From: Candidatus Zambryskiibacteriota bacterium
Lineage (GTDB): Bacteria > Patescibacteriota > Minisyncoccia > Phycocordibacterales > WO2-35-19
NCBI GenBank assembly: GCA_016932555.1
Contig: JAFGCQ010000022.1
Location: 1 to 48,711 of the forward strand
Length of the DNA stretch: 48,711 nucleotides
Direction of reading: 5' to 3'
Shown: positions 35,222-43,543 of the stretch, in pieces
Position numbering within the stretch: the first letter of the stretch is position 1
Layout of the letters: every line of letters starts with the position of its first letter
Translations under genes and position numbers: made by a program
Notes under the pieces: generated by a model
The model's database searches: none
The model's input: only the letters and a program-made list of their open reading frames with translations
Told to the model about the DNA's origin: nothing

Positions 35222-35986
35222 ATGCGAGAAATGTTGGAAAAATACTTACAAAATATAGGTTTGACTGATAAAGAAGCTACTGTTTACTTATCTTTGGTCC
35301 AAGTAGACAACGCTTCGGTTCTTGATTTGTCAAAAAAGACCAAACTAAAAAGGCCAACTGTCTATGTGGTTTTGAATTCTTTGGCCAAAAAAGGTTTGGT
35401 TAGCGAAAACACCGTAGGCAAAAAAACCCATTATCAAGCCGAACCACCGGAAAGATTAGAAACTTTCGTAGAAAGGCAAAAACTTGTTTTAGACGAAAAC
35501 AGCAAGCGTCTAAAGGATATTATCCCCCAGATAAAAGGCCTTGAAAGAGGTTCTGGCGAACGACCCATTGTAAAATATTATGATGGAAAAGAAGGAATAG
35601 TTAGCGCTGTTAATGGTATTTTTGAAAATGACACAGAAACAGATGAGCCAATTTATCTTATATATCCAAGAGATTTGTTAGACAAACTCTTTCCGCCAGA
35701 AGAAAGAAATCAGTATAAAAACAAAAGACTCCAAAGAAAAGTAAAATCGAAAGTGCTTTACTCATATGAAAATGGCGAGATTCCATCAGACGATATGGGT
35801 GAAAGAATAAAAATCGATGGTAAAAAATATCCTATCACTTGTGATATAGCTATTTACAAAGACAGTGTTCGTATAAGTGTTTTGAACAAAAGATTTTCTA
35901 GTATTTATATAAAGAGTGACGATGTGGCTGAAACTTTACGAAGTCTGTTTAGGCTTATATTCGATAAACTGAAAGAAACTAAATAA
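35222..35986 (+). CDS. TrmB-family transcriptional regulator
   Basis: LQNIGLTDKEATVYLSLVQVDNASVLDLSKKTKLKRPTVYVVLNSLAKKGLV. Confidence 0.9.
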   Translation: MREMLEKYLQNIGLTDKEATVYLSLVQVDNASVLDLSKKTKLKRPTVYVVLNSLAKKGLVSENTVGKKTHYQAEPPERLETFVERQKLVLDENSKRLKDIIPQIKGLERGSGERPIVKYYDGKEGIVSAVNGIFENDTETDEPIYLIYPRDLLDKLFPPEERNQYKNKRLQRKVKSKVLYSYENGEIPSDDMGERIKIDGKKYPITCDIAIYKDSVRISVLNKRFSSIYIKSDDVAETLRSLFRLIFDKLKETK

Positions 35987-35995
35987 TTTAAAAGA

Positions 35996-36034
35996 AAAGC
36001 CCCTCGATCTCCTTGCGGAAATCGAGAGGCTTTT
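35996..36034. terminator. Hairpin terminator, possibly bidirectional
   Basis: AAAAGCCCCTCGATCTCC-ttgc-GGAAATCGAGAGGCTTTT. Confidence 0.75.
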
Positions 36035-36304
36035 GGCTGGTGCAACACTGTGTGTCGCCCCAAAAATTGTACTACCTTTCGCTTGGCTTCTGGAATTTCC
36101 AGTGGCTCGCGAAATTATGTTAGTCCTGCATTTTGCCTCCAAATACGTCCGAGAATTCAAAACACCCCCAGACATTGATTATCGAACATTGACCCTAGAG
36201 ATGATTGACTTTCAGCCGATACCGCTTCCCCGCTGTATGGACAAGCGAGGAAGCGGCACCAACCTTTCAGTCTTCCATACGATCACCTCCGTAGGTAGAT
36301 TTAC
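36035..36304 (-). ncRNA. Putative short minus-strand transcript with nested hairpin and two SD-minigenes
   Basis: Promoter 36312..36340, CCGCTTCC..GGAAGCGG hairpin, minigenes at 36267..36278 and 36120..36131, ends at terminator. Confidence 0.45.
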
Positions 36305-36311
36305 TGCGACT

Positions 36312-36340
36312 ATCTTAGCAAATTGAAAATAATTTGTCAA
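36312..36340 (-). promoter_or_regulatory. Sigma70-like promoter TTGACA-17-TAAGAT
   Basis: Reverse complement of ATCTTA(17)TGTCAA. Confidence 0.65.
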
Positions 36341-36582: not shown

Positions 36583-36626
36583 AATCTGTCATAATTACTT
36601 GACAGATTTTATATTATGAGTATAAT
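36583..36626 (+). promoter_or_regulatory. Promoter TTGACA-16-TATAAT with overlapping operator AATCTGTCA-N8-TGACAGATT
   Basis: -35 at 36599..36604, -10 at 36621..36626; 9-bp inverted repeat 36583..36608. Confidence 0.8.
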
Positions 36627-36647
36627 GTTGTCAGAACTTTGAAATAA

Positions 36648-36715
36648 GCTTCTGCTCCTACTCATGAGCCCCGCCCAGATTTTAACGCGAGGGCTCAAAA
36701 GCAGGGGCAGAAGCC
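36648..36715 (+). ncRNA. Structured 5' leader (nested long hairpin)
   Basis: GCTTCTGCTCCT pairs with AGGGGCAGAAGC (12 bp); inner GAGCCC/GGGCTC. Confidence 0.6.
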
Positions 36716-36721
36716 AAAAAA

Positions 36722-36847
36722 ATGAAGCAGTTGCTGGAAGCCTTGAAGGGTTCCAAGCTCTTGGCTGTCGGAGAAGACAGTGAAGGTCGAAAGATCTATC
36801 ACTACCTTCTGCCGGACGGCAAGGTCTTGGAAGTGATTCGAGCTTAG
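36722..36847 (+). CDS. Small hypothetical ORF (41 aa), absent from ORF track
   Basis: MKQLLEALKGSKLLAVGEDSEGRKIYHYLLPDGKVLEVIRA*; first ORF after promoter. Confidence 0.6.
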   Translation: MKQLLEALKGSKLLAVGEDSEGRKIYHYLLPDGKVLEVIRA

Positions 36848-36861
36848 GCTCGAGCCCTTCT

Positions 36862-37030
36862 GGGTGCGACAATCCTTGGCTAAGGCACCAAGGTTGCGAT
36901 AAAACCCTTTCGCGTAAAAGTATGGGCGACGGAGGACGCTTTTTCTCCTCCTGTCAAAGTTCTTAAACTCTTGAGAATTTTGACGGGAGAAATAGTTCTT
37001 CCAAAAGTTCTTTTAATTTAAATAAGGAGG
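36862..37030 (+). ncRNA. Structured inter-ORF RNA module, copy A
   Basis: Core GTTGCGATAAA..CGCGTAAAAGTATGGGC (36893..36927), hairpins GGAGGA/TCCTCC, TCAAA/TTTGA, GGGAGAA-ATAG-TTCTTCC, then GTTCTTTT box. Confidence 0.6.
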
Positions 37031-37034
37031 AGTT

Positions 37035-37226
37035 GTGGGCATAGTAAACGACGGTTTAGTTTGCAAAGATGAAGAAATTGCTGTTGTGATCCAAGTCAGG
37101 CAGGAAAGGTGTGATTTCTGTGGCCAAGTGGCCGAACTAAAACAACTTGCCAATGTAATGCTTTGCTCGGAAGACTATGAGCTTGCGGAAAAAGCGTGGC
37201 AGGAATGTTTTGGAAAACAAACCTAG
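37035..37226 (+). CDS. Small CxxC-containing protein (63 aa, GTG start)
   Basis: SD AAGGAGG 37024..37030; ...ERCDFCGQVAELKQLANVMLCSEDYELAEKAW. Confidence 0.6.
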   Translation: MGIVNDGLVCKDEEIAVVIQVRQERCDFCGQVAELKQLANVMLCSEDYELAEKAWQECFGKQT

Positions 37227-37336
37227 CTGTAACTTCGAGCAATATTGGGAGGAATATTGCTCACTCGAATGGGTTCGCGAAATAGTTCGTGGATCGATAG
37301 AGTTTTTGTTCTTTAACTTACTTATAGGGGGTACTA

Positions 37337-37540
37337 ATGAAAAATCAAACTGCTATTTTCGCTGGCTTGGTTATATTCATTCTTTTAGTGGCAAATGTTG
37401 GTGTGTTGGTTATTGTAGACAACACTCATCCCAACATTTCTTCTGGAGATTGGATAGCTATGGCAATAATATGTCTGGTCTTGGATGTGTTTGTATTTAC
37501 TACATCTATGCGCAGATATTTGTCGCTACCGCGGAGATAG
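37337..37540 (+). CDS. Small membrane protein (67 aa)
   Basis: SD AGGGGGT; two hydrophobic helices. Confidence 0.6.
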   Translation: MKNQTAIFAGLVIFILLVANVGVLVIVDNTHPNISSGDWIAMAIICLVLDVFVFTTSMRRYLSLPRR

Positions 37541-38322
37541 CTCTGGGATCGTCAATCTTTGTTCAAGGAAACAAAGTTGCGATAAAGTCCACTCGCGTAA
37601 AAGTATGGGCAGTGGAAGATTAGTACCTCTTTCCACCAAAGTTTTTGATGAGTCGAAAATTTTGGTGGGAGAAGAATGAGGTCATACCTGTGCTTGTAAG
37701 TAGGCGTCACGGACTAGCAACGATCCGATATCCTGCGGGACGGGGAGCAGTCAACCGCTGAAAGCAAGTGCAATCTGAACCTCATCCTTCTTCCTACTAT
37801 ATTGATCTTTAAAAATTTGCTGGGGCGCATCCGCGAGTATGCAACGTCCTTTCGTAAAAAGATGACCGAAACCAAGATATGGTAATGATTGAAACACATC
37901 TTGCATTTCAACAATGTCATCTTCAGCCGAAAGAGGGATTATTCCTAAAGATTGGAATTTTCAAAAATTTCAGCTAACTCGCAAATAATCAATCGCCGAA
38001 CGGAGGAGGAAAGACCGGTCCCTTCGAAAGGGAGCAATGTCTGACAAGATAAGTGCTTCTTCGGTGAAGCACTAGAGCTTGTTCCCAAGGGAGCATTCTT
38101 AGGGATAATCCCAACCGGTCGTGTCCTTTTATAGGGGGTGATGCCTCCCTAGGATCCTCGCCAAACATTTAGTGTTCACCTTGTGGATATGAAAATGTGA
38201 GTCGAGGAAGCACTTGATTTCGCAGATGCCTAGGCCTGACGAATCAAGCGTTGTTAAGGGTTCAATGTTAGAGGTTTGGACTGTTAGTAATTACTTTCAG
38301 TCCAGCCTCAAACCCTTCTGTC
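37541..38322 (+). ncRNA. Large ORF-free structured RNA, including module copy C, bounded 3' by the hammerhead cleavage site
   Basis: Many long helices, e.g. 37667..37682/37779..37794, 37935..37950/38098..38112, 38213..38219/38242..38248, 38278..38283/38298..38303. Confidence 0.6.
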
Positions 38323-38403
38323 TCGAGATGTGCTTGCCCCGTGTGGGGTAAAACCCCATTTACGGGGTATCTCGACTGATGAGTCCAAAAGGACGAAACA
38401 GAA
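38316..38403 (+). ncRNA. Type III hammerhead ribozyme
   Basis: UUCUG-UC | UCGAGA...UCUCGA-CUGAUGAG-UCC-AAAA-GGA-CGAAA-CAGAA; all core nucleotides present; predicted cleavage after C38322. Confidence 0.92.
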
Positions 38404-38436
38404 ACTGTTCTTTTAAATTTTATAGAGGAGAGAAAA

Positions 38437-38676
38437 ATGAGTGTATTTGTTGCTGTTTTTAAATCTAGAGACGAGTATGTTGTTCCGTATTCAGTTGTTT
38501 TCATGTCAAAAGAATTAACCACATCATATCTAACTAGTAATGGATTCGTAAAATTATCAGGTTGGCACGATGTTGAACAGTGGACAAAGAATGATGATGG
38601 TCGTGGTCCGACGAAAGTTGAGGTTTATGATGCTCCAATATTTGACAAGTGTGACGAATGGGTATGGAAAGAGTAG
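38437..38676 (+). CDS. Small hypothetical protein (79 aa)
   Basis: SD GAGGAG upstream, immediately after hammerhead. Confidence 0.6.
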   Translation: MSVFVAVFKSRDEYVVPYSVVFMSKELTTSYLTSNGFVKLSGWHDVEQWTKNDDGRGPTKVEVYDAPIFDKCDEWVWKE

Positions 38677-38680
38677 AAAT

Positions 38681-38795
38681 TTGGCCGAACACTGTTCGGC
38701 CTTTCATCAAAGTTTTTATCCGTTAACTGACGGATGAGGATTTTGATGGGAGAAATGGTTCTTCCAAATGTTCTTTTGAAAAAATTATAAAGGAG
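38681..38795 (+). ncRNA. Structured inter-ORF RNA module, copy D (3' half)
   Basis: GGCCGAAC/GTTCGGCC; ATCAAAG..TTTTGAT; GGGAGAA-ATGG-TTCTTCC; GTTCTTTT box; SD. Confidence 0.55.
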
Positions 38796-38800
38796 TTGTT

Positions 38801-39100
38801 ATGTTAAAGATAATGTTAGACCAAAGCTGTTTAGATGCAAATTGTATTTGGTATTATCCGGGATCAGAGTCAGAGCTTATAAGAGACTGGCAAAAAGGTC
38901 TGATTCCTTTCATTTCTAGACAACATCGGGGACTACTGAGTCTTCTTCCAGAACAATTCGTTGAGGTTTTTGATCGATTTACAGTATTATTCATCGAATC
39001 AGATCTCAAGGGGTTCATTCTCGAAGAGATGGATGACGGTGTTTCCTATCTCAAGATTAGAAACAAAACTTTTAGGTTTCCAAAAAGGAGAAGAAAATGA
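38801..39100 (+). CDS. Small hypothetical protein (99 aa)
   Basis: SD AAAGGAG; overlaps next ORF by 4 nt. Confidence 0.65.
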   Translation: MLKIMLDQSCLDANCIWYYPGSESELIRDWQKGLIPFISRQHRGLLSLLPEQFVEVFDRFTVLFIESDLKGFILEEMDDGVSYLKIRNKTFRFPKRRRK

Positions 39101-39360
39101 AAAAACTTAGTTTTATTGGTCTTTTAACGTTCGGAGTAGCATTTATATTTTTAATTGTTATTGCGGACATTTCTATGAACAGCAACACCCCAATCCCTGA
39201 CCATCTTCTTGGAATGATTATCGCTATTATGTCTTTTGGCTTATGGCTGATAACCAAGGGTGAGGCAGAACGGAAGAATTGGATAGGAGCCCTTTTTTAC
39301 TTCATCTTTTTTCTTCTATTTGCAACACTCGCTTCCATTGGTCTTTGGTTTGGATATTGA
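39097..39360 (+). CDS. Small membrane protein (87 aa)
   Basis: Three hydrophobic helices; translationally coupled ATGA overlap. Confidence 0.65.
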   Translation: MKKLSFIGLLTFGVAFIFLIVIADISMNSNTPIPDHLLGMIIAIMSFGLWLITKGEAERKNWIGALFYFIFFLLFATLASIGLWFGY

Positions 39361-39396
39361 CCGTCTCCCCTAGGAAAGGAGGCGGCTGTTTTTTTA
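39361..39396 (+). terminator. Operon terminator
   Basis: CCGTCTCC...GGAGGCGG followed by TTTTTTT. Confidence 0.75.
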
Positions 39397-42628: not shown

Positions 42629-43543
42629 ATGGTGAAGGATTTGGAACAATTAAAAAGACAGTTTCTAGAATATGTTGAGATTGAAAAAGGCCGATCTTTG
42701 AAGACCGTTGAAAATTATAATCACTATTTAACAGTTTTTTTGGAGTACACTAAACTTAAGGACCCGGCTGAAATTACTGATAACGTAGTTAGAGAGTTTA
42801 GACTATGGCTCAATCGGCAACCAGTTGGACTTGGTAAACCAGGGACACTCAGCCGCAAGACTCAAAATTATTACCTCATCGCTATCCGCGCTTTCCTTAA
42901 ATATTTGACTAAACAGGAGATAAAAACCCTACCACCTGAAAGGATAGAGCTTGCCAAAATACCTGAAAGATCGCTTGATTTAATTACTGATACCGAACTA
43001 GAAAGGCTATTTGAAGCCCCTGATGGTGATGATGTAAAGGCCTTGCGTGATCGAGCGATATTACACCTCCTCTTCTCTACTGGCTTGCGCGTCTCTGAAC
43101 TTTGTTCCCTAGATAGAGACATCGATTTAAATGATGATGAGTATTCTATACGCGGCAAAGGCGGCAAAGTCAGAGTAGTTTTTTTCTCTGAAGAAGCCAA
43201 AAAAGCGGTAAATGATTACCTAGATAAGAGAAAAGACTTAGACGACTGCCTATTTGCCCAGATTTCCAGAAATATAAAACCTGGACAAAAAAGTTTGCGC
43301 ATGAGCTCACGCTCAATTGCCAGAATTATAAAATATTACGCTACTAAAGCCGGCATTTCCAAAAAAGTCACTCCCCATGTCATCCGCCACTGCTTTGCCA
43401 CCGACCTCCTCTCAAACGGCGCCGATTTACGCTCCGTGCAGACCCTTTTAGGTCACGCCAACATCGCTACCACTCAAGTTTACACCCATGTCACCGACAA
43501 GCATCTCCGTGACATCCACAAAAAATTCCATAACAAAAAATAA
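42629..43543 (+). CDS. Tyrosine recombinase (XerC/XerD-like)
   Basis: LFSTGLRVSELCSL, HVIRHCFATDLLSNGADLRSVQTLLGHANIATTQVYTHV. Confidence 0.95.
   Translation: MVKDLEQLKRQFLEYVEIEKGRSLKTVENYNHYLTVFLEYTKLKDPAEITDNVVREFRLWLNRQPVGLGKPGTLSRKTQNYYLIAIRAFLKYLTKQEIKTLPPERIELAKIPERSLDLITDTELERLFEAPDGDDVKALRDRAILHLLFSTGLRVSELCSLDRDIDLNDDEYSIRGKGGKVRVVFFSEEAKKAVNDYLDKRKDLDDCLFAQISRNIKPGQKSLRMSSRSIARIIKYYATKAGISKKVTPHVIRHCFATDLLSNGADLRSVQTLLGHANIATTQVYTHVTDKHLRDIHKKFHNKK

Follow-up and report, generated by a model that had tools for sequence, protein, structure and literature searches.

Hundreds of hammerhead ribozymes were found in bacteria in 2011, and their biological role has been open since. The locus described here raises the question of what such a ribozyme does at the end of a long stretch of DNA in which no gene is apparent. 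The locus lies on contig C33 (48,711 nt; referred to below as the window) of the 608-kb, 93% complete genome G000, from a member of the Paceibacterota (CPR) related to Candidatus Zambryskibacteria. The original prediction, made from the letters of the window, had supposed a CPR-like host, rightly, and had described an ORF-free, helix-rich RNA of roughly 650–750 nt at positions 37541–38322, with its 3' end set by a hammerhead.

A predicted hammerhead at the 3' end of an ORF-free RNA

A covariance-model search placed a type III hammerhead ribozyme on the forward strand at 38316–38404 (25.7 bits, E = 8.5 x 10−4 genome-wide), with predicted self-cleavage between positions 38322 and 38323, exactly at the end coordinate first proposed. 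The core reads CUGAUGA-GUCC-AAAA-GGAC-GAAA, in which GUCC-AAAA-GGAC is stem II, and is joined by stem I (UCGAGAU/AUCUCGA) and stem III (UUCUGU/ACAGAA); the stems have 9, 4 and 5 pairs and the cleavage triplet is GUC. The defining features of the type III class in Rfam family RF00008–the CUGANGA...GAAA core, three helices, an NUH site and an open stem III–are all found in the window copy. Its score of 22.6–25.7 bits is under the RF00008 gathering score of 48.5, which is a search threshold and not a mechanistic feature, because loop I carries an inserted hairpin. This insertion of about 35 nt (38333–38368) splits the loop between the UGUG and the UA of its common form, most often UGUGUA in relatives, and it could weaken or regulate the ribozyme. 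Directly 3' of the hammerhead are a GUUCUUU box (38407–38413, forward strand), a Shine-Dalgarno sequence, and an ORF at 38437 that encodes 79 amino acids.

The sequence upstream of the cleavage site is strongly structured, as had been claimed: the minimum free energy (MFE) of 37541–38420 is −319.1 kcal/mol, compared to −247.9 ± 6.9 for shuffled sequences (z = −10.4), and sub-parts folded separately have z-scores of −4.7 and −5.5. Most of the helices originally listed (37667/37779, a UUCG hairpin near 38052, 38213/38242, 38256/38311 and 38278/38298) are present in the sequence and mostly appear in the MFE structure, but the pairing 37935/38098, although complementary in sequence, is absent from it. 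The proposed length did not survive. Because 37541–37803 is a separate leader-type module that repeats 36859–36936, the ORF-free unit proper extends from about 37808 to 38322, and the claimed 5' extent was about 265 nt too long. We therefore describe the unit as an RNA of about 510 nt on the forward strand, probably beginning at 37811 and ending at the cleavage site at 38322. Folded alone, 37808–38322 has z = −7.7. Its longest ORF has only 32 codons, a length equalled or exceeded in 93 of 100 shuffles, and none of its ORFs is preceded by a Shine-Dalgarno sequence, in agreement with the earlier view that it contains no convincing gene. The ORFs of at least 60 codons that touch 37541–38322 are overlapping or antisense and have no support, and a recoded reading with TGA as glycine opens no convincing frame in the region. 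The unit ends in a hairpin of the form AAGGGUU-CAAUGUUA-GAGG...CCUC-A-AACCCUU (38256–38317, forward strand). A scan for the CAAUGUUA internal-loop motif gave strict matches only in the window and in two copies at locus L071, but this motif has a notable background and the L071 matches are tentative.

The RNA had been reported to resemble no large RNA known by name, and database searches bear this out. No Rfam family matched the region at its gathering score, and the hammerhead is the sole credible match at E ≤ 10. Neither the region nor six related loci gave covariance-model matches to RNase P, SRP, tmRNA, OLE, GOLLD, ROOL, or group I/II introns. By BLASTN we found matches to the region only in its own genome among the genomes of the genus and family, and none in phage records; no homolog of 37816–38255 was found. 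Exact-pattern scans of viral contigs for GCGTAAAAGTATGGGC and GTTCTTCCAAANGTTCTTTT returned coding-looking or chance matches.

Small orphan genes beside a TrmB-family regulator

Upstream of the RNA is a gene for a TrmB-family regulator of 254 amino acids (35222–35986, forward strand; Pfam PF01978, E = 1.2 x 10−15), which precedes what appears to be an operon and whose homologs, 48–86% identical, adjoin the corresponding loci. A sigma70 promoter at 36599–36626 (TTGACA-16-TATAAT) matches the consensus at 12 of 12 positions, and an operator-like inverted repeat, TGTCA-N7-TTGACA (36587–36626, forward strand), lies over its −35 element. Of 13 TrmB loci, 11 have such a repeat over their promoter; across all loci, the density of the pattern is 0.05 per kb. 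TGTCATAATTACTTGACA is a candidate TrmB binding sequence.

The operon features described next are all on the forward strand. The transcript would start with a rod-like leader hairpin, E0 (36646–36715), whose structure is conserved among loci: 7 of its 12 consensus pairs are changed on both sides among 8 loci, and each single-sequence fold shows more pairs than the consensus. Then comes a first peptide of 41 amino acids, MKQLLEALKGSKLLAVGEDSEGRKIYHYLLPDGKVLEVIRA (36722–36847), which by eye is like the peptides after E0 in L074 and L130. Module A (36859–37013) consists of a 5' element that we call R1, two hairpins (H1 and H2) and a GUUCUUU box at 37007–37013. The ORF list gives two small ORFs after it: an orphan of 63 amino acids (37035–37226) and, after a further box at 37308–37314, a membrane-protein-like ORF of 67 amino acids (37337–37540). 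Module B (37542–37810) comprises a second R1 (37542–37619), H1, an H2 whose loop is extended by about 100 nt (37667–37794), and a GAUCUUU box (37804–37810); the two R1 copies, at 36859–36936 and 37542–37619, are 77–80% identical. Beyond the ORF-free unit and the hammerhead are the 79-residue orphan ORF of the downstream cleavage product (38437–38676), a module C with H1, H2 and a GUUCUUU box (38702–38776), and the operon's last two small ORFs, of 99 and 87 amino acids (38801–39360). H1 occurs in all three modules, and several of its pairs show compensatory changes. When the A/B element was searched for with a two-sequence covariance model, a single clear homolog emerged (E = 3.5 x 10−18), beside the TrmB gene at locus L054 in the same-genus genome Zambryskibacteria 39_39 (G001). 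Weak R1 matches in four other genomes (G247, G078, G029 and G003) seemed on inspection to be chance matches.

Within module A (36927–37033), UCCUCC can pair either with GGAGGA or with the Shine-Dalgarno sequence GGAGGAG of the ORF at 37035, the two pairings being exclusive, and module B has an analogous pairing, GUGGAAGA/UCUUUCCAC. These arrangements are possible translation switches.

A divergent RNA with its own promoter (TTGACA-17-TAAGAT) is predicted on the reverse strand at 36000–36340. It contains two ORFs of three codons, each preceded by a Shine-Dalgarno sequence: AUG-GAA-GAC-UGA at 36278–36267 (MED) and AUG-CAG-GAC-UAA at 36131–36120 (MQD). ORFs of the form AUG-NNN-GAY-stop, with a Shine-Dalgarno sequence and located between the TrmB gene and the operon promoter, are found in the divergent RNA of 8 of the 13 loci (the window, L068, L054, L071, L072, L076, L115 and L118), twice in four of them, and L074 has a five-codon version, MGDAK. 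The divergent RNA looks like a conserved minimal-ORF RNA.

Hammerheads and boxes in related genomes

A search of a genome collection with the TrmB protein identified nine loci, and type III hammerheads are present downstream of the TrmB gene in L071, L072, L074, L075 and L076. RF00008 matches are scattered through the order, at E ≤ 0.01 in 61 of 397 genomes (48 of 179 genera, with up to 10 matches per genome); at E ≤ 0.001 they occur in 30 of 380 genomes of a phylum sample, and we found none in 14 control genomes. The best hammerheads of relatives score 40–54.5 bits, a few of them (49.6–54.5) above the gathering score.

A structural scan of the fetched loci yielded 84 distinct hammerheads, which show several pair types in each stem–for example, the first pair of stem I is TA in 38 copies, GC in 23 and CG in 20–and have GUC or other NUH cleavage triplets. 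Since the scan demands pairing, the percentages of paired positions hold by construction, and the evidence for these hammerheads is the variety of pair types together with the RF00008 matches, which are independent of the scan. In 56 of the 84, a GUUCUUU-type box with the consensus UGUUCUUUGAAA is within 40 nt of the hammerhead (background 2.5%). A TrmB-family gene is close to the hammerhead in 18 of 40 loci that were selected for carrying hammerheads, an association expected by chance in a few per cent because genomes of the genus have 0–3 TrmB-family genes. The locus is also present in L054 and L068, the closest relatives by TrmB sequence, which retain the promoter and leader as well as boxes and ORF-free stretches but have no recognisable hammerhead, so that hairpins may stand in for the ribozyme at these loci.

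ORF-free units between two hammerheads

Some of the units between successive hammerheads contain an ORF starting shortly 3' of the box. Their cargo is variable, including a histidine phosphatase, receiver-like, RNA polymerase alpha C-terminal and cold-shock domain proteins, and many orphans. Other units have hammerheads at both ends and are ORF-free: L115 3494–3878 (384 nt, z = −7.7), L120 2557–2989 (432 nt, z = −10.0), L126 3061–2692 (369 nt, z = −11.3), L128 1960–1621 (339 nt, z = −8.9), L130 3934–3512 (422 nt, z = −3.4), L130 3512–2732 (780 nt, z = −13.5) and L132 3547–3250 (297 nt, z = −5.5). The longest ORFs in the L115, L120, L128 and both L130 units are equalled or exceeded by most shuffles, and the L126 and L132 units have only ORFs of ordinary length that lack a Shine-Dalgarno sequence. 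Most of the double-hammerhead units have a hairpin of 20–25 bp soon after the box, and most have another immediately upstream of the cleavage site. The window unit has a hammerhead at its 3' end only; its terminal hairpin is like theirs, but it lacks the long first hairpin.

The L115 unit is a homolog of the L120 unit, which comes from another genus of the same family. Of the 77 pairs in their consensus fold, 17 differ at both positions, 13 at a single position and none is broken, and the energy of the fold is −82.5, compared to −15.8 ± 4.1 for shuffled columns; the count of 17 exceeds the maximum of 15 seen among 100 column shuffles. Because the comparison involves two sequences and the structure was derived from the same two, we regard this covariation as supportive rather than final. 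These relatives, with hammerheads at both ends and covariation in the L115/L120 pair, much strengthen the original idea of a large noncoding RNA matured by a ribozyme, which for the window RNA itself is putative. Elsewhere in the window's own genome (L034 1440–2440; contig C1 near 1567) there is a stretch of about 1 kb that is ORF-free by eye, contains a GUUCUUUAAUU box and has no Rfam match.

A model for transcript maturation and its alternatives

We consider it probable, though far from certain, that hammerheads divide a TrmB-controlled transcript into small mRNAs and stable noncoding RNAs, the window RNA being one of the latter. The RNA would be a single unit within a hammerhead-punctuated operon, whose one sigma70 promoter the TrmB-family regulator would control through the inverted repeat over the −35 element. 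The transcript, from about 36630 to 39390, would contain the structured leader, the small orphan ORFs and the ORF-free structured RNA, in units separated by hairpins or the hammerhead and each followed by a GUUCUUU/GAUCUUU box. Judging from its sequence, the type III hammerhead would cleave co-transcriptionally after C38322. This would leave upstream an RNA of about 510 nt whose 3' end is a stable hairpin followed by CUGUC with a 2',3'-cyclic phosphate, and downstream an mRNA that starts with a 5'-OH hammerhead hairpin and encodes the 79-residue protein. Most likely the ORF-free RNA persists as a stable noncoding RNA that has a role of its own, perhaps as part of a ribonucleoprotein, and the box after each unit may, by analogy with boxA, aid the polymerase across long untranslated structured RNA. 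A broader proposal, to which we incline a little less than evenly, is that the Paceibacterota have a widespread and undescribed class of large noncoding RNAs, which hammerheads at one or both ends would cut from TrmB-regulated transcripts and which would act in trans as stable structured RNAs or ribonucleoproteins.

Alternatively, the RNA may act only in cis, as a long intercistronic or leader regulatory element in which the hammerhead and hairpins only serve to produce monocistronic mRNAs whose 5' ends are protected, the fragment upstream being functionless. In favour of this view, a GUUCUUU box and an ORF often come directly after hammerheads and the H1/H2 hairpins, ORFs follow modules A and C, and module A can either form the GGAGGA/UCCUCC pairing or leave UCCUCC for the Shine-Dalgarno sequence. 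However, because this explanation needs just a 5' hairpin, it has difficulty with the double-hammerhead units of 297–780 nt, which have no convincing ORF, fold elaborately and covary in the one pair tested, and we think it rather unlikely. It is improbable that the hammerheads are relics of phage transcripts in a prophage or mobile element, like the prophage clusters of Perreault et al., even though many known bacterial hammerheads are near integrase genes in prophages (PMC3088659). The cargo does consist of small orphan ORFs that differ between loci, and a tyrosine-recombinase-like ORF is present at 42629–43543. Against this, a PHROGs scan of the window found no phage structural or replication genes among its ten island ORFs, the region has no match in phage records, viral contigs yielded no confirmed relatives of the ORFs at 38437 and 38801, and in several lineages the position beside the TrmB gene is constant, some of them also having rpsO close by.

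Two further possibilities concern the fate of the released RNA. Viroid-like RNAs and retrozymes circularise via hammerhead-made ends, and units with hammerheads at both ends would have exactly the 5'-OH and 2',3'-cyclic phosphate groups whose joining could make excised circular RNAs. RtcB ligase, however, is absent from G000 and present in only 3 of the 397 genomes of the order, none of them hammerhead-positive, a near-absence that argues against circles made by RtcB; back-ligation by the hammerhead is another possible route, and overall we have little belief in circularisation. Still harder to credit is a Y-RNA-like partnership with a TROVE/Ro60 protein. The G001 operon does have a TROVE (Ro60/Rsr-like) gene, on the reverse strand at L054 3557–1894, directly downstream of the homologous structured leader, but G001 is its only carrier among 297 genomes searched, G000 lacks it, and no YrlA or Y RNA match was found in Rfam. 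This gene hints that RNA-binding proteins can be cargo.

If the units are indeed stable trans-acting RNAs, they would constitute a new RNA class. They are a candidate large-RNA family in organisms whose genomes are minimal and for which carrying about 500 nt without coding content is costly. Across an uncultured group, many members share one recurring hammerhead architecture, frequently at a homologous locus, and the hammerheads here delimit both small genes and large noncoding RNAs; their role in transcript maturation can therefore be put to a direct test. A literature search, with most subscription journals and preprints outside its scope, found no paper linking hammerheads or other self-cleaving ribozymes to Patescibacteria/CPR.

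Comparison with known systems

The box invites comparison with boxA, which has the consensus UGYUCUUURA and acts in antitermination leaders of rRNA operons. The consensus UGUUCUUUGAAA closely resembles it, and the order of a hairpin followed by a box is alike, but the box here is repeated before many units. The motif G[TCA]TCTTT is missing from the 1 kb that precedes each of four 16S genes in the genus, so identity with boxA is unsupported by 16S leaders and the box is an unproven candidate. Upstream of 16S, four genomes of the genus (L077–L080) have GUUUUGUUCCGUUC in common, together with a conserved GGUAAGGUUUG...UUGCAAGUC stretch. In G001 the 16S rRNA gene (C5:33029–35102) is matched in four pieces, with an apparent insertion of about 800 nt.

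OLE, GOLLD, ROOL and the raiA motif are highly structured, ORF-free RNAs of hundreds of nucleotides, and units of the window type are likewise; they differ in having no Rfam match, in being bounded by ribozymes, and in residing inside an operon of small orphan genes. The window ribozyme is like Hammerhead_3 (RF00008) in its core, three stems and NUH site, and differs by the loop I insertion that accompanies its score of 25.7 bits. The closest parallel in arrangement is provided by prophages, in which tandem hammerheads cut a polycistronic RNA around individual variable genes and cleave both in vitro and in E. coli (Perreault et al. 2011, PMC3088659). Here too several ribozymes would punctuate a polycistronic transcript, but those described here are apparently chromosomal, linked to TrmB, and of type III with a GUUCUUU box, and they bound ORF-free RNAs and not only genes. 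Both the ribozyme class and the punctuation of transcripts by tandem hammerheads in prophages are already known, whereas the TrmB-linked, boxed arrangement across the Paceibacterota and the large hammerhead-bounded ORF-free RNAs in CPR chromosomes appear to be new.
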